A DNA stretch of 27,488 nt, from positions 1 to 27,488 of IMG/VR virus record IMGVR_UViG_3300036652_000361. One strand, 5' to 3'. A program made the position numbers and the translations under genes. The stretch's first letter is position 1, and every line of letters starts with the position of its first letter. This stretch comes from a virus. Positions 3,100-15,662 of this stretch are shown here, one piece after another. The notes beneath the pieces were generated by a model that was not told where the DNA came from, made no database searches, and saw only the letters and a program-made list of their open reading frames with translations.

Positions 3100-5643
3100 T
3101 CAGCGATCGGCGGCGACGTGCGAGAGGTCCGGAGCGCGTGAGGGCGTGGCCTGGTCGGGCTCCCACCAGGCGGAGTGTCCCTGCTGGCGTGCCTTGACCT
3201 TCATGCGGTCGAGGTAGCCGGGCGAGAGGTAGTCGGACAGCTGGTTGAAGATCAGATGATTGAAGGCCGCCTTGAGATACCAGAGCGATGATCCTGGCAC
3301 GTAGGACTTGAGCGCGGCGACCGTCGAAACGCCGGTGGGCTGAAGCTTCTTTACAGTGCTGGCGTTCGGGTCGGTGCTGGCGGATACCAGTGTCTGTCCA
3401 ACGTTGAGCAGCTTGGAGATGTCGGCCACCTGCGGGCCGAGCAGTGTCTCGGCCAGGGTGTTGCCGCGAGCTTCGGCCGTATTGATCAGGAAGTCGCCAT
3501 AGATGCCCAGGCCGCCACCCTTGGCTAACGCGGCCGCCCAGTTCTTCCAGCCTTCCTTGCTGGATAGGTCGAGCGTGCGCGGGTCCTTACCCGACAGAAT
3601 GTCATTCACGCTGTTGGCGATCGCGCCGGTCACGATGGTCGAGGCGATCAATGCCGCGGCATACCCGGCTGTCCCGGCCTTGGTTTCGTAGGCGCCGGCG
3701 GCTCGTGTCCAGTGTGAACGAAGCATCTGCATGGGATAGGACTTGAACAGGCGGTAGCTGGAAACCAGGAAGGCCGACATGCCGTCCAGCGACTGATCGG
3801 CGCCGGATTTGACGCGCGTCACAGGATCGGGCTCAAGGATTGCATTGTCCTGTTCGGACTGCACGAAGCCCATCAGATGCGCGGCCGCTTGGTTTCGGAT
3901 CACGCCGGGGTCGCCCTGCACGGCGGCGGCAATGTCGGCCTCCGGGATCTGGTAAATGGATTCGGGCGTAATGAGTGTGTGATTGCCGCCGTAGTCGTCC
4001 AGCTTGGCCAGCTTGAGAATCTTCCAGTCGTCCTCGGTCATGCCGGACGACTTGATGAACTTCTGGTCGGACCGATCCAGATCGGCGAGGTTGTCATAGT
4101 GCTGCAGCGCGTAGCCGACCTGGTTGAGCATGCCGGTGGAGAACCCAAAGCGCTCGGCTTCCCAATAGCGCGTGACGCCCGACAGCTTGAGCATGGCTGC
4201 GCCCACCTTGCTGGTCCACCCATGCGCGCCCACGTCGCCACCGTAGCGACTGATGCTTTCGTTGTAGGTGCGTGTCATCAGGCCGGCGCTCTGCGCCATC
4301 TGCTTGGCCTTGGCATTCAGCGGGTTCAGCCGGCCCAATTCGTTGAGGAACATCTTCGTCTTGGGGATGCCATTCACATGAGCTGTCACGGCCATAGGCG
4401 CATTGTCGGTGAAGGCGGTGACCAGCACGCTGCCCAGCTTGAGCGTCTGCAGGTTGCGCCAGCCCTGTATGGCTTTGCCGTGCCACGTCGTGGGCGGCGG
4501 CCGACCGTTGCCGGCCATGTAGTTGTACAGGCGCTCGACGAAACGGGACGACTTCTCGACGCTGCTGCGGTTCTCTGGATCGGCCACAATCGACCGCGCC
4601 GACTCTTGTTCGAGGAAGTGGGCGAACTGGCGGTCAGCATTGGGGCCGAATTGCTCGATCAGCGCCGTGTTGCGCGCCATATTCTTGAGGTGGCCGAGCA
4701 TGGACTGCATCACGCTGTGGTCGGAAAACGCCCGCATAGCGGTCATGTGCGATGGCGCATCCTTGAGATGGATCTGCCGTTCCGCACTGCCGCGGTTGGC
4801 CTTGATGCCCGAACCGATGCGCTCGCCACCGAGGACCTTGTTCGCCCCGCCGGTCACGACGGTCTGCCACGCCTCACCCAGAAATGTTCGCATCTCCGCA
4901 TCGCTGTAGGCACTCCCGTCCTCGTGCACGTAGAAGGAGCGATTGAGCAGCGGCAACATAATGTCGGTCCACTTCTGCTTCCCGGCCTTGAGCAGAAGGT
5001 GGTCCGACCAGCTTTGCGGGATGCCCCAGTTGTCCAGCTTGCCGATGTCGCCGCCAGCTGCATTCATCTGGTTGCGTGCCATCTCGGCCGCTTCGTGGAA
5101 GTCATCCGCCGCCGCCTTGAACTGCGGACTCACGCGCTTGTCGCCGTATAACGCGCTCAACAGTTCCGCCTCGGCCTTGGGATCGCGCAGCAACCCGAAC
5201 AGTCGCTTGTCGAGCAGGTTCCAGCTTTTCGCCATAAAGGTCGACCAGCTGTTGTTGTAGCCGTTCGTCTTGTTGTAGACCGACGCGATGTTGTTCTTTC
5301 CATCCGTCTCCCCGACCAGCATGCGGCGCAGCGCATCGACCCCGCTGGCATCGTGTCCGGCAGCGACCTGCGCATCGATGTAGTTGCGCATGCGGTCGTG
5401 CGCTAGGATCGCCAGGGCGGTGCGCTGTCGGCGCTTGGCCGCTTCCTGCTCAATCCCTTCGGATGCATCGTGCGCCGCGCGTTGCAACCGTTCATTCGGC
5501 GACAGCTTCGACCAGCCCGGCGGATCATCGGCCGCCAATCGGCGCATGCTCGTCCGGATGGTGTTCTCGATGTCTCGGGTTTCAGCGGTCGTGGCGCTAC
5601 GCCCCAGCGCGCGGTTCACCGCCTGGATGCATTCCGGCCTCAT
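3100..5643 (-). CDS. Large internal virion / DNA ejection protein (847 aa)
   Basis: 847 residues, last of five consecutive presumed ejection proteins. It starts at an ATGA overlap with the 992-aa gene (MRPECIQAVNRALGRSATT). The sequence is mostly helical and rich in Q, N, A and K. One clear hydrophobic segment lies near residues 658-680 (AALIASTIVTGAIAN), compatible with membrane insertion. No enzyme motif was recognised. Size, position just before the tailspike and general composition match the largest internal virion proteins of T7/epsilon15-type phages, which are ejected before the DNA and form a channel across the envelope. Function by analogy and position; detailed role unknown. Confidence 0.72.
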   Translation of the reverse strand: MRPECIQAVNRALGRSATTAETRDIENTIRTSMRRLAADDPPGWSKLSPNERLQRAAHDASEGIEQEAAKRRQRTALAILAHDRMRNYIDAQVAAGHDASGVDALRRMLVGETDGKNNIASVYNKTNGYNNSWSTFMAKSWNLLDKRLFGLLRDPKAEAELLSALYGDKRVSPQFKAAADDFHEAAEMARNQMNAAGGDIGKLDNWGIPQSWSDHLLLKAGKQKWTDIMLPLLNRSFYVHEDGSAYSDAEMRTFLGEAWQTVVTGGANKVLGGERIGSGIKANRGSAERQIHLKDAPSHMTAMRAFSDHSVMQSMLGHLKNMARNTALIEQFGPNADRQFAHFLEQESARSIVADPENRSSVEKSSRFVERLYNYMAGNGRPPPTTWHGKAIQGWRNLQTLKLGSVLVTAFTDNAPMAVTAHVNGIPKTKMFLNELGRLNPLNAKAKQMAQSAGLMTRTYNESISRYGGDVGAHGWTSKVGAAMLKLSGVTRYWEAERFGFSTGMLNQVGYALQHYDNLADLDRSDQKFIKSSGMTEDDWKILKLAKLDDYGGNHTLITPESIYQIPEADIAAAVQGDPGVIRNQAAAHLMGFVQSEQDNAILEPDPVTRVKSGADQSLDGMSAFLVSSYRLFKSYPMQMLRSHWTRAAGAYETKAGTAGYAAALIASTIVTGAIANSVNDILSGKDPRTLDLSSKEGWKNWAAALAKGGGLGIYGDFLINTAEARGNTLAETLLGPQVADISKLLNVGQTLVSASTDPNASTVKKLQPTGVSTVAALKSYVPGSSLWYLKAAFNHLIFNQLSDYLSPGYLDRMKVKARQQGHSAWWEPDQATPSRAPDLSHVAADR

Positions 5644-8618
5644 AGATCACTCCCAAATCGCAGGAAACAGGCTACGGCAGCCTTGATGCCATCGGATTGC
5701 CGATTGGCTGCCTGCACATCTTCATCAGCCGCACGCATGGCGTCGGCGATGGTGCCGCCCTCGTCTAGAGTTTCGCTGGCTCGATCGGCAAGGACTTGGC
5801 GGGCTCGCGCAACGTCGTCAGCTCGCAATGGATCGTGTGCATCTCGCGCGTCAGTCGCTCCATCTCGCGCAGGATCGCCTTGCTGCGCTTCGTCAACGCC
5901 TGCATGCGTTCCTGTCGATCGATCAGCTGGCGACGCGTCAGTGGCACCGGCAGAGCCTTCGGAGGGGACGCCTACCGTATCACCGCCCGCGGTTGGCGTC
6001 TCGCCATGGCCCTGCAACAGTTTGCGCTGACCAAGATCATCGTAAGGGGTCGTGTCGATGTCGGCCGGAATGTCGCCCTCGGCCCGCGCTTTGGTCCGCG
6101 CCGCATCGATGCCGTCCGCCAGCGCCTTCTGGTACTGCTCAGGGTCAATGCCGTACTTGGCGCGGATGAATGCGTTCTCGCGCACGGTGGCAATCGCGTG
6201 CGCCTGTGGGTAGGCCAGCGGCTTGCCTTTCTTGACCTTCACCAGATCGCTTTTGGGAATCTTCGGGCTGTTCGGATTGGCCTTCGATTCCGAGGTAATA
6301 TCGGCCCGCAACGCGGTCATGTACTCCGGCGACTTCGGGCCGTCCGGTACCATGACCTTCTGTTCCTCCACCTCGTGGACGAACACGCCTTCCTTCGCAT
6401 CGATGGTCTTGCCGGACACCTTCACGGTGTCGGGCATGTACTTGCTGAGGTAGACAGTGTTGCCATCCCCGCTCACGCCACCGGCGTAAGGGATGTTTCG
6501 GGTGTCGTCGAGTTCGACCCACGGGTGCCGGTCAGGCGTGCCGTAGGCGGCATCGGTGGAGCGGATGGAGTCACCAGAAACAGAAACCCCGCCAGCGGCG
6601 GGGTTCAGGTCGGGTGGCTGTCCAGGAACTCTTTGACTCGCCGATTGTGTTCCTCGTAGGTCATCGGGCCGTCGCCCTTCCCCTCCCTCGACTTCAGGTA
6701 ATCGAAGTAATCCGGGGGTGCCATCGTGGGCGCTTGGGCTGTCGAGGGTGCCGTGGTAAACACGGTCTGAGACGTTTGTCTGGGTACCAACTCGATCTTC
6801 ACCGGCTTGTGACCCTGCTGGATCCAGCTCCGGACCGTTTCGCCGATCAGTGGCAGCCGGTCGAGTGGATTCTCGGCGGTCGGTGCGGAGGCCGGCCCGC
6901 TTTCGTCGATCTTTGTCGGCGTACTGGGCAGTTTCGGCGGATTCGACATCTGATCCTTTTCCATAGCTCAAACCTATACCGTTTTGGGTGATCACGCCAC
7001 CGTCCTGGTTTGTCGCCTTGATCGCCATGGTGGCCAGGTATTCCCGCATCCGCTCCATGGCTGCTGTCACGTCCGATTCGTTGTGACCTTGCCCGATGAA
7101 CTCATCCCCGCCGCGATGGAAGACATTCCCCTCACCCAACGCCTTGGCCATCAGCGTGCCGATCTGACGGATCACGGTGTCACCCGCGCCATGGCCCAGA
7201 CTGTCGTTCAGATCCTTGAAGTTGTCCGCGTCGGCGAACACCTGCACGGGGAGCAACTTCCCTGCTTGTTCGGCCTGCGCGCGCCCGACCATGTTTTGCA
7301 CGCCAGCCATGGGCTTGCCGGCGACCTTGGCTTGCCGGGCATCCTGGTCCTGCAAGTCGATCAGTTCGTTCTGGTCCTCCGGTGAAAGCGACTCGCCCTG
7401 CTGGCGGCGCTGGCGTAGTTCGTCCAGTCGCGCCTGGTACGGCATCTGGTCGATCAGTTCAGGTGCCTGCGCAAGGGCGCCGTCCCCAGTGCCTGCTGTC
7501 TCGCTCCGGAACGCCTCATCAATGCCTGCCGCGGCATCGGCATTCACGGGACGCGGCACGAACGTCGCGCCTCGCACGATAGGGTCGACGTCGATCGAAT
7601 GGCCGTTGAGCAACTGGCCGGTAGCGGTGTCGAGTGCGTCCACATGCTGCCCTGCTGAACGCGGATCGGCCGGAACGCCGGGCGCCACTTCGTTGACGTG
7701 CTGCGCATTCTTGGCGACCAGCGCGGAATCGATCAGGTCGGATGGGATCGGCGGCGCCCCGCCTGCGTCGTCCTTGGACGCCCCACCATGCGGCAGCAGG
7801 CCGAACGCGCCACCGATGATGATGTCACCGAGCATCGAGGCGCCGTCGTTCCACTTCTCCTGCGCGGCCTGGGCCGTGTAGCCGTGGTCGGCCAGTAGGG
7901 CGGAATCCAGGCCGCGCTGACCTGCCCCGAACCCGAAGTTCACGCCGGCACTGGTGAGCGCGCGCATCAGGGCGGTCTTGCCCATGCCGGCGACGCCACC
8001 CATGCCCAGCAGCGAACCGCCGGCGAGCAGGCCGGACTCGGTCGCCGTGGACGGGTCGACGCCCTGCGCTTCGAGGTCTTTCGCGCGCTCGTACCCGGTC
8101 GTGCCTGCGGCCAGCGTCAGGCCGAAGCCGGGCGCGACCAGATCGCCGCCGACCACGCGGGTCACAACGTCGGTGGCACCGAACAAGGTGTTGCCGACAA
8201 AGCCGGTCGTCTGCGGGTCGGGACGGAATACCCGGTTGACGTCCTGCCGCGCTTGGTCGATGGCGTGGTCGGCCTGCGGTTGAAACTTGTCCCATCCGCC
8301 GTGCACGTCCTGCACGCTGTTGGCCGCGGCGTCGAACAGGCCGGCGCCGGTATGGATCGGTGCATCGGATGGCTCGGCCACGCCGTTCTCGGCGCGATAC
8401 TGGTGGCCCAGCACGTCCGGCGGATTCACGGCCAGCTTGGCGACATCGAGCCCGACGTTCGCCACGCCTGACGGGATGCCCGCCGCCGCCTTGTACCAGC
8501 CTGCGAAGGCGCCCGGGCTACTGGGATCGGCGGCGGCCGGATGACTGCCATAGAGCGCCGTGAATCGCTGCTGCTCGTCTTGGGAGAGGTTGTCGAGATC
8601 CCAGCCCTGTGCGCTCAT
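5640..8618 (-). CDS. Multidomain ejection protein with GGDEF (diguanylate cyclase) domain
   Basis: 992 residues from MSAQGWDLDNLSQDEQ; the ATG at 8618 overlaps the previous stop (ATGA). The frame stays open upstream to 8882, but that part only shadows the preceding gene. Residues ~140-270 are glycine/alanine-rich and hydrophobic, typical of ejection proteins. Residues ~460-585 form a GGDEF domain: FADADNFKDLNDSLGHGAGD carries the metal-binding D-x-D, the FK and ND guanine-binding residues and GHxxGD, then GGDEF itself at 503-507. No RxxD inhibitory site is seen upstream of it. A low-complexity linker (~590-710) contains a nested gene and a terminator. Residues 748-752 (HEVEE) with AHAIATVRE (from 806) look zincin-like. 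The end (AAVACFLRFG) resembles a conserved tail of such polyproteins. Domains seen; c-di-GMP synthesis inferred. Confidence 0.78.
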   Translation of the reverse strand: MSAQGWDLDNLSQDEQQRFTALYGSHPAAADPSSPGAFAGWYKAAAGIPSGVANVGLDVAKLAVNPPDVLGHQYRAENGVAEPSDAPIHTGAGLFDAAANSVQDVHGGWDKFQPQADHAIDQARQDVNRVFRPDPQTTGFVGNTLFGATDVVTRVVGGDLVAPGFGLTLAAGTTGYERAKDLEAQGVDPSTATESGLLAGGSLLGMGGVAGMGKTALMRALTSAGVNFGFGAGQRGLDSALLADHGYTAQAAQEKWNDGASMLGDIIIGGAFGLLPHGGASKDDAGGAPPIPSDLIDSALVAKNAQHVNEVAPGVPADPRSAGQHVDALDTATGQLLNGHSIDVDPIVRGATFVPRPVNADAAAGIDEAFRSETAGTGDGALAQAPELIDQMPYQARLDELRQRRQQGESLSPEDQNELIDLQDQDARQAKVAGKPMAGVQNMVGRAQAEQAGKLLPVQVFADADNFKDLNDSLGHGAGDTVIRQIGTLMAKALGEGNVFHRGGDEFIGQGHNESDVTAAMERMREYLATMAIKATNQDGGVITQNGIGLSYGKGSDVESAETAQYADKDRRKRAGLRTDRRESTRPAATDRRNGPELDPAGSQAGEDRVGTQTNVSDRVYHGTLDSPSAHDGTPGLLRLPEVEGGEGRRPDDLRGTQSASQRVPGQPPDLNPAAGGVSVSGDSIRSTDAAYGTPDRHPWVELDDTRNIPYAGGVSGDGNTVYLSKYMPDTVKVSGKTIDAKEGVFVHEVEEQKVMVPDGPKSPEYMTALRADITSESKANPNSPKIPKSDLVKVKKGKPLAYPQAHAIATVRENAFIRAKYGIDPEQYQKALADGIDAARTKARAEGDIPADIDTTPYDDLGQRKLLQGHGETPTAGGDTVGVPSEGSAGATDASPADRSTGTHAGVDEAQQGDPARDGATDARDAHDPLRADDVARARQVLADRASETLDEGGTIADAMRAADEDVQAANRQSDGIKAAVACFLRFGSDL
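5765..5947 (-). CDS. Nested out-of-frame ORF, 60-aa coiled-coil protein
   Basis: This 60-residue ORF lies in the +1 frame inside the 3' part of the 992-aa ejection gene. It starts at GTG (5947), with GAAGG eight bases upstream and an in-frame TAG 27 bases upstream. The product (MPLTRRQLIDRQERMQALTK and on) is an even, charged amphipathic helix, rich in R, E, L and M, predicted coiled coil. By hand count only about 9 of 60 codons end in A/T in this frame, while over half do in the main frame, whose product here is a low-complexity D/A/R/G linker. That supports real coding in the nested frame. Function unknown; a small DNA-binding, chaperone or regulatory protein are options. It may still be chance. 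Confidence 0.5.
   Translation of the reverse strand: MPLTRRQLIDRQERMQALTKRSKAILREMERLTREMHTIHCELTTLREPAKSLPIEPAKL
6574..6605 (-). terminator. Intrinsic terminator inside the 992-aa gene, at the end of the nested ORF
   Basis: On the minus strand AACCCCGCC-GCT-GGCGGGGTT is followed by TCTGTTTCTGG. The 9-bp perfect stem (6585-6593 with 6597-6605), 3-nt loop and U-rich tail make a good intrinsic terminator. It begins at the stop codon of the nested 114-aa ORF, yet lies mid-gene in the main frame. Confidence 0.7.
6605..6949 (-). CDS. Nested out-of-frame ORF, 114-aa hypothetical protein
   Basis: A +1-frame ORF inside the 992-aa ejection gene, overlapping the last strand of its GGDEF domain and the following linker. 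The preferred start is ATG 6949 (MSNPPKLPST), with AAGGA four bases upstream; ATG at 6964 adds five residues. Upstream in-frame TAG and TGA close the frame. The product is protein-like: a proline-rich N-terminus, then PLIGETVRSWIQQGHKPVKI and a charged C-terminus (DYFDYLKSREGKGD, YEEHNRRVKEFLDS). By hand count 26 of 114 codons end in A/T here (about 77% GC3), against roughly half in the main frame. The stop codon coincides with an intrinsic terminator. The ORF plus terminator looks like an inserted moron-type unit that kept the host frame open. No family recognised. Confidence 0.62.
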   Translation of the reverse strand: MSNPPKLPSTPTKIDESGPASAPTAENPLDRLPLIGETVRSWIQQGHKPVKIELVPRQTSQTVFTTAPSTAQAPTMAPPDYFDYLKSREGKGDGPMTYEEHNRRVKEFLDSHPT

Positions 8619-11955: not shown

Positions 11956-12386
11956 AGTTCGAACCTCACTTGGTTGCCGTGCACGTCGAACACCGCACCC
12001 AGCCAGGTCAGCCAGCGGATCGTGCGACGGTTGTCGATGTGGACCGTATTGACGAGGCGCGGCCACCGGCTGTGCATTTCCGCCAGTAGCTTGGGTGTCT
12101 CGTGAAGGAACAAGCGCGCGTTGCGGTCGAGGATCGGCGTGGCCAGCATCCACACAGTGGCCTCGTCGGCGACGATGCTCGAGGACGCGATGCCGAACAG
12201 GGCGGCCGGTTCCTCGTCGATCAGTGCCACCCAGGCATCCCCTGGCGCGCGCAGGCTGCGCTGCACTGCCAGCTCGGGCGTCATGCGGTTCAGCGCCCAC
12301 ACTTCGGCGCGGTCCGCCTCGCGCAGGTGCGCGGCGACATACTCCGCATGCCACGGCTGCACCGGCACAATCGAAAGGTCAGCCAC
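11943..12386 (-). CDS. GNAT-fold / T7 gp13-like virion protein (147 aa)
   Basis: 147 residues, GTG start, overlapping the previous gene by 8 nt. The sequence follows a reduced GNAT acetyltransferase fold: an N-terminal strand and helix (PVQPWHAEYVAAHLREAD), a central GIASSSIVADEATVWMLAT, and a late motif DNRRTIRWLTWLGAVF that resembles the N-x-x-A/T-x-x-x-x-x-x-lGA end of GNATs. The acetyl-CoA-binding R/Q-x-x-G-x-G/A loop is not evident, so catalysis is doubtful. Related DUF2833/gp13-type proteins sit at the head of T7-like ejection-protein clusters and are needed for virion assembly; the same position is kept here. Confidence 0.72.
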   Translation of the reverse strand: MADLSIVPVQPWHAEYVAAHLREADRAEVWALNRMTPELAVQRSLRAPGDAWVALIDEEPAALFGIASSSIVADEATVWMLATPILDRNARLFLHETPKLLAEMHSRWPRLVNTVHIDNRRTIRWLTWLGAVFDVHGNQVRFELCAR

Positions 12387-14112
12387 CGGCCACGCTCACG
12401 TCGGCGATCACACCGAGGATATTCAGCGGCAGCGGTTCGGATTGGCGCACGAACACCACGCCCTGCGTGCTGAATGTGGTCTGCACATACGCTTCGATCA
12501 GGTCGTTCTGGAGCGCGTTGGGAGGGTAGTAGTTGTCGGTGGCCAGCCGCCCCTTCATCGGCAGCAGGTTGGCCGGGTCCGGGCCGATCATCGCGCCGCG
12601 GCTCTTGTTCACGATCAGCGTGACCTTGCTGATGATCTTGCGCTTGTCGCGCACGCCTTCCTGCCCGATCGCGTTGACCTCGAGCGTCTGGAAATCCGCG
12701 GTGATCGGCAGGCCGATATGCACCACGGCCGCCGGCGCATCGAGCGTGATCGTGCCACTGGCGGGCACCTTCTGCTGCGCCTTCACGTTGCCATCGGCCA
12801 GGATCGAGACCACCTGCCCCTGCAGGTACTGCATGCCACCGAAGGACAGCGGGCAGTAATCCCACGAGGCCACGGCGATCGCCTGCATGCTCTTGGGCAC
12901 GTCGCCAATCGAGCGCACCTGCACCACGCTTGAACTGGTGTAGCCGATGATCTGGCACGCCAGGATGGTCTGCACCTGCTGGATGGTGCCGAAGTCGTCG
13001 GTGACCGGATTGCCGGCACTGTCGAGCTGCGGGGTGTAGCCGTAGAGCTTGACCCAGTCGGCATTGACGCCAAGGGCAGAGAACGGCGTCGCGCCGGCGC
13101 AGGTGAGGGTGAGCGTGTCCGCACTGGTCCACGTCGTGCCGCCGGTCAGCGTCATGGTGGCGCTGGGCGCGGTGGTCGAGTTGCGCCCGTCGTAGCTCAA
13201 GCCCGCATCGACGAAGTTGGCATCGCGCTGGTCGACGAAGAAGCGGCTGTTGAGGCGCTCGACGAAACGCACGGTCTGGCCGTTGATGACACGGCGCACG
13301 ACCATGTAGACCGCGTCCTCGTCGCCCTCGGTGATCGAGCACACCGATTCGACGAAGCCGTTCACCGTGTCACAGTGAAACCACCCCATCACCTCCTGCT
13401 CTTTGAAGTACGCCAGGCCCAGGAGCACGCCGTCATTGCGCACCGCCCACACCACCGAGAACGGCGTCTGTTGGTAGGTCCAATCGACGATCTGGTGCCC
13501 CTGCACCAGGTGCGAGGAGAACACGGTCAGGTCGTTGCCAGAGTATTGATCGACCGCGAACTGGTAGGCCAGGTCACGGACATAGTCTCCGCGCCCCTGC
13601 ACGAACAACGCGCTGTTGCCCACCACCAGGCTCGGCACCGGCGAGGATCCATAGTTCGACTGCGGCAGGAAGCTGATGGTGCTCGGCGTGAGCACGTTGG
13701 CGGTGCCGCCGGTCGTGCGCCACTCCGAGCCGGTCGTCAGCGTCACGAGATCCTTGAGCGGGACCAGGTCGTGAATCGCGTTCACTTGCCGGGCGACCAG
13801 CGTCGCGGTGATCGCATCATCGTCCGCGGTCGGCACGCTGTGCCCGAAGTTGTTCCACTGGCTGATTTTGCTTGACCATACCGTGGCTGGGTTGGTTTGC
13901 GTGCCAGCGAAGAACAGGCGGTTGCTGAAGAACTCCACCTCGACCGGGTAGCCGCTCGATGGGCCCCAGGCACCCAACGACCACAAGTTTGTGGCGTTCA
14001 CGGCACCTTGGGCAAACTCGTTCACCGCGATCGCCGCGCCGTTGGCCGGCGGCGTGTAGAACGTGATCGTGTGGCCAACGTTGTCGACCGTCCAGCCCTG
14101 CTGTGTGGTCAT
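12379..14112 (-). CDS. Tail protein, C-terminal part of a split tail tubular/nozzle protein (577 aa)
   Basis: 577 residues, ATG at 14112 overlapping the upstream stop (ATGA), with no good Shine-Dalgarno, so translation is probably coupled. It opens in the middle of a beta-domain: GWTVDNVGHTITFYTPPANG is the second half of the 'ydg-x-Y-tv-ITF-APP-G' module seen in phage tail proteins. It continues with the tail-protein core: FFSNRLFFAGTQTNPATVW, TADDDAITATL, and DLVTLTTGSEWRT. In related podoviruses the part before this core normally sits in the same polypeptide; here it is the 517-aa gene upstream. It is expected to form part of the short tail tube or nozzle. Assignment by pattern; the split-gene interpretation is discussed under findings. 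Confidence 0.75.
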   Translation of the reverse strand: MTTQQGWTVDNVGHTITFYTPPANGAAIAVNEFAQGAVNATNLWSLGAWGPSSGYPVEVEFFSNRLFFAGTQTNPATVWSSKISQWNNFGHSVPTADDDAITATLVARQVNAIHDLVPLKDLVTLTTGSEWRTTGGTANVLTPSTISFLPQSNYGSSPVPSLVVGNSALFVQGRGDYVRDLAYQFAVDQYSGNDLTVFSSHLVQGHQIVDWTYQQTPFSVVWAVRNDGVLLGLAYFKEQEVMGWFHCDTVNGFVESVCSITEGDEDAVYMVVRRVINGQTVRFVERLNSRFFVDQRDANFVDAGLSYDGRNSTTAPSATMTLTGGTTWTSADTLTLTCAGATPFSALGVNADWVKLYGYTPQLDSAGNPVTDDFGTIQQVQTILACQIIGYTSSSVVQVRSIGDVPKSMQAIAVASWDYCPLSFGGMQYLQGQVVSILADGNVKAQQKVPASGTITLDAPAAVVHIGLPITADFQTLEVNAIGQEGVRDKRKIISKVTLIVNKSRGAMIGPDPANLLPMKGRLATDNYYPPNALQNDLIEAYVQTTFSTQGVVFVRQSEPLPLNILGVIADVSVAGG

Positions 14113-15662
14113 TTCGGCAATGCCAAGTTGTTGTGCGTCGAGACGTAGATACCCGGGCGATCACCACCCCACAGGCACCAGCCGCCGATGCTCATTTGAT
14201 TCACCCAGAGATCTCCGACAGCGGTCAGGCGGGTGACGCGTTCCCAGCGTGTGCGAGGCAGCCCGACAAGCCGGCGCCACCACGCATCGCGGCGTACGGC
14301 GACCAGTTGGCCAAGCATCCCGGGCAGCATGCACAGCGCACCACCCGGGAGCGTCATTGGCGTGGAATCGCTGGCCGTGACCGTGGCGCCGGATTCGGTG
14401 ACCAGACGCCGGCACGGCTGCAGGCTGAGTCGCGCGTCCTGCACGTTGAATCGATGCGTGACCAGGTTGCCGTACGTGCCCTCGATGGTTCCACCTGCGA
14501 ACACAAGTCCGGCCAAGAGACCGCCCGGCATGACCTGATCGACTGCCAGGCATCCGCCGCCGGTGCCACTGCCGCCACCACTGGGGGGCAGGTAGTTCGG
14601 GTCGCTCTGCACGATCACCCCGCCGATCGTGACGCTGTAGTTGCCGGTCAGCGCAGACACGTTGCCGGCGATCGGAAAGGTGATCGTCGACCCGTCGCCC
14701 GTCAGGCTCCACGCATGGGCGGGCGTTCCCGCGCCACCGATGATGCCCTGGGGCAATGTCCGAGTGACGGTGCCGGTGACTGTGGTGTCGTTCGTATAGC
14801 CGGTGATCTTCACGATGCCGTAGCCCGAATCGACGTACTGCCACAGCACGCCATCGGTGTAGGTGTTGGTGCCGTCGCTGCGCACATCGCCCGGACCGTC
14901 CCACTGCGCGCCCCTGTCGTGCTGCGGTGCGTTGCCGCCGCACAGGACGTAGGTGCCCCCGGTGCTGGCCTGAATAGCCTGGTAGGTGATGCCGTCGTTG
15001 ACGCGATAGCTGCCCATCGCGACGTTCTTCTCGCCCGACGCCCATGGCTTGAGGTTCTGGAAGTTCTGATTCTGCAGATACAGCAACTGGCCGACCATCG
15101 AGGCATTGAACGTGCCGGCGGTGTTGCAGGTGACCGTGACGTTCCCGGTCGTAGCGCTCGCGGCCATCATCGTCGCCGCGTTGCCGTTGGTCGGCTGGAA
15201 CGGCCCCTCGAACACCACGAAGGGCGCAATCACGAAGGTGGCCGCGCTGGTGCGGCTGATGGTCTGCGGCGGGTAGTTCGGATGGGTCAGGTACATCACG
15301 TCCGCCGACTGGGTGTAACGCACGCTCCAGATATCGCCCGCGCCCCACGGCGTGGCGATCTCCACCGGCGAGCCGCCGGACATCACTGGTGCGCCGTTGG
15401 CATAGAACCGCGCATAGTTCGCGCCCAGCTCGAGCACGTAGTTCTGTTCGGTGTTGAACGAGAACGGGATCAGCCGGCAGGCGCCATCGCCTTTCGTGTC
15501 GGTGATGTAGGTCGTGCCCGGTCGGTTGTAAACGCCGCCATAGCTCGACACGATGAAGTTGCGGCACGTCTGCAGGGAGTTGGCATAGCGCTGCAGGTCG
15601 GTGCGCGCATACAGCGCCGGCGCGAGCTCGCCGCCAGTGAAGGAGGGCTGGGTCAGTTTCAT
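14109..15662 (-). CDS. Tail protein, N-terminal part, ending in a Hint/intein-like domain (517 aa)
   Basis: 517 residues from MKLTQPSFTGGELAPALYAR; ATGA overlap with the adaptor gene. A longer reading to 15836 is shadow. The N-terminus (FTGGELAPAL, RNFIVSSYGGVYNRPGTTYI) is the classic start of podovirus tail tubular/nozzle proteins. Residues ~320-365 give the first half of a beta-module (LTGDGSTITF, NYSVTIGGVIV), then a Gly/Ser-rich linker. Residues 371-511 read as a Hint domain: C371-L-A-V-D at the start, VTESGATVTASDSTP (421-435) in the block-B position but without its usual His, and IYVSTHN ending in H510-N511. Six residues follow before the stop. The remaining half of the interrupted module is on the next gene. 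Hint assignment by motif only. Confidence 0.8.
   Translation of the reverse strand: MKLTQPSFTGGELAPALYARTDLQRYANSLQTCRNFIVSSYGGVYNRPGTTYITDTKGDGACRLIPFSFNTEQNYVLELGANYARFYANGAPVMSGGSPVEIATPWGAGDIWSVRYTQSADVMYLTHPNYPPQTISRTSAATFVIAPFVVFEGPFQPTNGNAATMMAASATTGNVTVTCNTAGTFNASMVGQLLYLQNQNFQNLKPWASGEKNVAMGSYRVNDGITYQAIQASTGGTYVLCGGNAPQHDRGAQWDGPGDVRSDGTNTYTDGVLWQYVDSGYGIVKITGYTNDTTVTGTVTRTLPQGIIGGAGTPAHAWSLTGDGSTITFPIAGNVSALTGNYSVTIGGVIVQSDPNYLPPSGGGSGTGGGCLAVDQVMPGGLLAGLVFAGGTIEGTYGNLVTHRFNVQDARLSLQPCRRLVTESGATVTASDSTPMTLPGGALCMLPGMLGQLVAVRRDAWWRRLVGLPRTRWERVTRLTAVGDLWVNQMSIGGWCLWGGDRPGIYVSTHNNLALPK
14130..14552 (-). other. Hint/bacterial-intein-like domain in the tail protein
   Basis: These codons encode residues 371-511 of the 517-aa tail protein, 141 residues, a normal Hint size. 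Seen: Cys at position 1 after a Gly-rich linker, a T-x-S-G-x-x-V-x-x-S-D motif in the block-B place, G-D-L-x-V-N near 483-488 in the block-F place, and a terminal His-Asn. The residue after Asn is Asn, not Cys/Ser/Thr, so normal splicing is not expected; cleavage at either end is possible. This pattern resembles A-type bacterial intein-like (BIL) domains. Confidence 0.6.

Follow-up and report, generated by a model that had tools for sequence, protein, structure and literature searches.

A Hint-fold domain of a previously undescribed family at the end of a podophage tail nozzle half

The 27,488-base IMG/VR stretch that we analyzed (the window) encodes a podophage tail nozzle in two genes, and the product of the first ends in a domain predicted to adopt the Hint fold. 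This domain belongs to a previously undescribed Hint family whose members form a mobile module at the C termini of virion proteins. The account toward which we lean, with modest confidence, is that of a two-chain nozzle in which the Hint domain removes itself and leaves a Gly-tailed first half that pairs with the second half.

The window displays a podophage gene order of the epsilon15/BPP-1-like kind, with genes for portal, major capsid protein of the GP7 type, Bbp16-like cement protein, tail adaptor, nozzle, gp13-like and gp14-like proteins. Nozzle half 1 (P0001; 14109..15662 on the minus strand, stop included) has 517 aa, matches phrog_20269 (E = 1.5e-97) and the tail protein family phrog_376, and aligns in tblastn over residues 5-307 with the nozzle of Carin1 (gp36) at 44%. 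Half 2 (P0002; 12379..14112, minus strand, stop included) has 577 aa and matches phrog_15566 (E = 3.8e-168), phrog_376 and, from residue 40 onward, the structure of the Carin1 tail nozzle (PDB 8ck1; E = 4.7e-114). The N-terminal part of phrog_376 corresponds to P0001 and the remainder to P0002. The two genes overlap, as had been noted originally, by an ATGA stop/start (14109..14112, minus strand) that couples half 1 to half 2. We conclude that these genes are the two halves of one tail nozzle of the T7/epsilon15/Carin1 type. Elsewhere in the window, a 972-aa protein encoded among the internal virion (ejection) genes (5640-8558, minus strand) contains a GGDEF diguanylate-cyclase domain (residues 440-548; PF00990, E = 3.5e-13); the injected proteins may thus include a c-di-GMP enzyme, or what remains of one.

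Both the gene position and the fold are those of a T7-type nozzle, the fold having been checked on a proxy for the pair: a Hint-less homologue (L022) whose halves lie in one frame, with the single stop between them read as Trp. AlphaFold modeled the fused L022 halves with a pLDDT of 75 and a pTM of 0.66, and the model superposed on Carin1 8ck1 with a VIA Z-score of 34.8 over 723 residues and on T7 gp12 with a Z-score of about 20. Propeller-type matches extend over residues about 45-680 and thus bridge the junction at residue 386. The junction linker (360-391) is disordered and flanked by strands (321-351 and 394-419), which the model does not show pairing. Separately, the nozzle of Pseudomonas phage UFJF_PfDIW6 (L009, 2546-5015) is annotated as two overlapping genes divided at a different place, perhaps reflecting a frameshift.

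The C-terminal portion of half 1 reads ...VQSDPNY-LPPSGGGSGTGGG-C371...STH510-N511-NLALPK-stop. It comprises a Gly-rich linker, PPSGGGSGTGGG (residues 359-370; 14553..14588), directly followed by the Hint-fold domain (residues 371-511, from Cys371 to His510-Asn511; 14130..14552) and a six-residue tail, NLALPK (14112..14129), all on the minus strand. Phage-type members of the family have tails of 3-10 aa. The original prediction had numbered Cys371 and His510-Asn511 correctly, and had rightly given Asn as the +1 residue and the block-B His as missing; one point to correct is that six further residues follow His510-Asn511, so that the Hint-fold piece including NLALPK makes up the C-terminal 147 residues of half 1. 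While Pfam, PHROG and NCBIfam models all fail to detect the Hint domain of the window, and a sequence profile searched against the PDB yielded four inteins among 15 weak matches (best intein E = 0.066), too little to settle the fold alone, structure prediction, which had been suggested as the check, does return a Hint fold. When run on half-1 residues 361-517 with 14 family members, AlphaFold gave a model with a pLDDT of 88.7 and a pTM of 0.84, for which all 49 PDB chains listed by Foldseek at E ≤ 0.001 are inteins, bacterial intein-like (BIL) domains or Hedgehog proteins. The VIA Z-scores are 17.9 for the Ssp DnaB mini-intein, 17.1-17.4 for Hedgehog and 14.4 for the Clostridium thermocellum BIL. 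In these alignments, Cys371 (model residue 11) falls on Cys258 of Hedgehog, and Asn511 (model residue 151) on the terminal Asn of several inteins. On the strength of these models, half 1 ends in a true Hint-fold domain.

Conservation points in the same direction. Cys1, His and Asn are invariant in all 30 family members (the window and 29 others), which share a mean identity of 31%, and they account for three of the five invariant columns among 133 that are well filled; the probability that three named columns would all fall among the invariant five is about 2.6e-5. The THN motif was part of the search patterns for some members, while the genome profile scans did without it. A single family with 29 other members and this set of invariant columns makes the domain more than a chance resemblance. 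The Hint domain is under purifying selection, with a dN/dS of about 0.18-0.37 in four close copies versus 0.14-0.24 for the half-1 core, dS being near saturation. The residues known to assist Hint chemistry are absent, however: block B reads S-x-x-T or S-x-x-A throughout the family instead of the T-x-x-H of inteins, and the His at block F:13 is not conserved, as judged from the alignment. The +1 residue is Asn in the window and Ser in one of the 30 members. The lack of T-x-x-H speaks against canonical chemistry but leaves the assignment of the Hint fold untouched, and doubts about cleavage stem mainly from the missing block-B His; the conserved Cys1 and His-Asn could serve structure or a different reaction.

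This family-wide loss of both His residues is what one would expect if the Hint fold had been kept purely as a structural or binding domain that stays attached in the virion. Xanthomonas phage PhiXhv-12 also encodes a stand-alone Hint copy without Cys1 and His-Asn (L011, 4423-4842), in the gene right after its Hint-ended tail protein, which could be taken the same way. We nevertheless consider a retained, inactive domain unlikely, since a pure scaffold leaves the invariance of Cys1 and His-Asn in 30 diverged members unexplained, and since this sole degenerate full-length copy has lost precisely those residues.

The family occurs at the ends of diverse proteins. Among phages, these are proteins of Xanthomonas PhiXhv-12/15/16, LucasX and XacN1, Stenotrophomonas DLP_6 and Erwinia Ep032; a search of 50,697 phage records gave no further convincing match, two PPSC2 records being weak (E = 0.09). 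IMG/VR adds copies at the C terminus of lambda gpJ-like proteins (L058, L072) and of jumbo-phage tail proteins (L062, L069). The preceding linker in other tail proteins is usually rich in Gly or Pro, poly-Gly being usual in the IMG/VR gpJ-like and jumbo-phage cases. One scan of genome contigs for the family found none. By profile scanning, 10 of 395 Lysobacteraceae genomes and 5 of 393 from Burkholderiaceae carry the domain, compared with 0 of 368 from other Gammaproteobacteria. A strict association with Xanthomonadaceae was considered and rejected: Lysobacteraceae exceed the other Gammaproteobacteria (p = 0.002) but not Burkholderiaceae (p = 0.30), leaving a tendency only. In Burkholderiaceae, the domain lies in Rhs/peptidase-effector-like proteins with longer C-terminal flanks (L094, L095, L096, L097 and L098), of which the truncated L098 ends before His-Asn. 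Our literature search found no description of this Hint family in tail proteins; where papers on phiCbK and CBB refer to Hint, they do so solely in connection with terminase and similar inteins. Virion proteomics has been published for XacN1 (PMC5852040).

How the Hint domain came to lie at a gene boundary is addressed by two phylogenies. In a tree of 46 nozzles with 40 split rows, all split nozzles form one clade (support 100/99), 33 of the 40 split rows are without a Hint domain, and its presence requires at least four changes. In the Hint tree, the nozzle Hint domains of L073 and L089 group with those of gpJ-type proteins (with L085, 87/72, and with L090, 100/97, respectively), while those of L005, L021, L064 and L065 form a separate clade. 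The AU test rejects one common origin for all nozzle Hints (p = 7.5e-29; 7e-60 when the window is left out), and likewise a clade of L073 and L089 (p = 5e-7). A clade of the window and the L005 group is not rejected (p = 0.055), and we therefore state the number of gains as at least three rather than four. The trees thus indicate that half 1, already split, acquired Hint at its C terminus on at least three independent occasions. Since the split clade is mostly Hint-less and its Hints were gained separately, the split did not need Hint.

Hint-bearing and Hint-less forms of half 1 both occur, and the empty form is a shorter C terminus rather than a rejoined protein: Hint-less half 1 terminates at the corresponding position, in a Gly-rich tail. 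The sister locus L008, whose half 2 is 77% identical, has probably lost its Hint copy; the end of its tail (AGRGTHIQ) was considered as a Hint scar and dismissed because the resemblance is too weak. The original prediction had an intein-like insertion turn into the site of a gene split, a claim that does not survive these trees. The coincidence of split point and Hint in seven nozzle loci, together with the possible common origin of the L005 and window Hints, would suit an intein that entered an intact nozzle gene, decayed and left its insertion site as a gene boundary. We give this history hardly any credence, because the single split clade is mostly Hint-less, its Hints have several origins, and no unsplit protein was found with the β-module or an internal Hint. 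As far as phylogeny can tell, the Hint of the window is a module common to unrelated tail proteins, not a vestigial intein of the half-1 gene.

The junction itself appears to run through an accessory β-module. Residues 308-517 of P0001 and 1-39 of P0002 have no counterpart in the unsplit nozzles of Carin1, epsilon15, MZH0603, Jess A, BIP-1 and HTVC024P. The first part of the module corresponds to half-1 residues 318-357 (14592..14711, minus strand) and the second to half-2 residues 5-35 (QGWTVDN..TITF..PPANGAAIAVNEFAQ; 14008..14100, minus strand), which align with positions 140-169 of DUF2460; every split locus has a QGW motif at the start of half 2. When joined, the halves of the window (WSLTGDGSTITF...YSVTIGGVIVQSDPNY + QGWTVDNVGHTITFYTPPANGAAIAV) match Pfam DUF2460 in a single run (E = 0.006), as do those of L008 (E = 3e-4), the runs covering positions 99-169 or 104-169. 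As controls, the swapped order gave E = 0.11 and the half-2 part alone E = 0.03, and the half-1 part by itself gave no DUF2460 match. It is thus likely, at modest scores, that a β-module is divided across the gene junction. This component of the original prediction gains support from the joined run, less strongly than the Hint domain does, but the joined halves of two other loci gave no DUF2460 match. The companion claim that relatives usually keep the whole region on one polypeptide holds insofar as unsplit relatives have a one-chain nozzle; the module, however, is missing from them. A further one-chain nozzle (L075, 3840-6515) carries an unrelated accessory module exactly at the module site of the split clade, which marks this loop as a place for accessory domains.

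Across the split loci, junctions occur in frame 0, 1 or 2 with spacings of -3 to +16 nt, and half 2 has its own start, often with a Shine-Dalgarno AGGAGG inside half 1. In the Hint-less L002 and L024-L048, this AGGAGG is encoded by the final codons of half 1, giving a QEV/QEA tail. A Lys-rich tail after His-Asn was considered as an extein signature and discarded, since Hint-less half 1 encodes AGGAGG at the same place, and the Lys-rich tail may therefore be shaped by the Shine-Dalgarno sequence. The half-2 N terminus was likewise ruled out as a conserved nucleophile because its start differs between loci (MTTQQ, MATQ, MADQ, MPQ, MAQ). In four loci (L022, L064, L073 and L089) the halves share a frame with one stop between them, which would suit frameshifting or read-through that sometimes produces one chain with Hint acting as an internal intein. 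Such recoding is very improbable, because junction frames and spacings vary freely and half 2 has a start of its own.

We return to the two-chain nozzle with a self-removing Hint domain. The original prediction had proposed self-processing, which is plausible. Judged from the sequence features, Hint most likely cuts itself off at Gly370|Cys371. After half 1 has folded, the Gly370-Cys371 peptide bond would shift to a thioester on Cys371, the resolution of which would release the 147-residue Hint piece and leave half 1 with its Gly-rich tail, the very form that Hint-less relatives such as L008 encode directly. Cyclization of Asn511 may also shed the six-residue end. Half 1 would then pair with the separately started half 2, completing the accessory β-module and the nozzle. 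The Hint module is optional and moves between tail proteins by addition to their C termini; that it removes itself, or plays a part in assembly, would explain why it is tolerated.

Type A BILs combine His-Asn with the lack of a +1 nucleophile; for the most part they cleave, in some cases they splice, and they can ligate their flanks via a free amine (PMC4031507), so transfer or splicing of the NLALPK end is possible. By analogy, the Gly370 thioester might be handed to an amine of half 2 or of another tail protein, or to a host-surface glycan or lipid, for covalent joining. The Hint fold also matches that of Hedgehog, which transfers cholesterol, and Hint has been gained repeatedly on adsorption-tip proteins such as gpJ. 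We regard transfer as doubtful, though, given that no acceptor-binding region exists outside Hint, that the variable half-2 starts offer no conserved nucleophile and that many relatives manage without Hint. Equally doubtful in our view is a broader version, in which Hint would be a C-terminal activation device that turns a Gly-rich tail end into a thioester for an acceptor during assembly or adsorption, yielding a covalent tail bond and, here, joining or anchoring half 1 at the nozzle split.

An unrecorded Hint family that lacks the usual assisting His is thus an end-module shared by podovirus nozzles, gpJ-like tips, jumbo-phage proteins and a few Burkholderiaceae Rhs/effector-like proteins, and the window provides an example of a nozzle naturally made of two chains. 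If active, the domain would bring a self-processing step to tail assembly, would be a naturally occurring Hint whose catalytic residues are unusual, and might offer a new tool for protein ligation; were transfer to occur, phage tails would gain a covalent bond through Hint chemistry.

Among known systems, the domain resembles the type A BIL of C. thermocellum (PDB 2lwy) in its predicted fold, Cys1, terminal His-Asn, non-nucleophilic +1 residue, lack of an endonuclease and length of about 140 aa. Unlike type A BILs, the family has S-x-x-T/A in block B, escapes Pfam, PHROG and NCBIfam models, and in its phage-type members always lies at or near the C terminus with a 3-10 aa flank. It shares with mini-inteins (Ssp DnaB, Npu DnaB, gp41-1) the fold (Z = 16.8-17.9), Cys1 and a His-Asn aligned to the intein ends, but it has no true C-extein and, one Ser in 30 aside, no C/S/T at +1, and it does not sit inside a conserved host protein; an intein is inserted in frame, is flanked by an extein on each side and has C/S/T at +1, whereas here six residues follow the domain and +1 is Asn. 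Like the Hog domain of Hedgehog (1at0, 6tyy; Z = 17.1-17.4), the Hint of the window is C-terminal and has Gly before the catalytic Cys; unlike Hog, it ends in His-Asn, lacks the block-B His and a sterol-recognition region, and its chain stops six residues after His-Asn. The intramolecular chaperone autocleavage domains of tailspikes differ from Hint in fold and chemistry. As C-terminal self-cutting domains (MYRF/ICA, PMC3742443), they offer an analogy of working, with no homology claimed. As in T7 gp12, epsilon15 gp12 and Carin1 gp36, the joined halves give a nozzle encoded in the order adaptor-nozzle-gp13; in contrast to these proteins, it consists of two chains, with an extra β-module where the two meet; the Hint end is optional.
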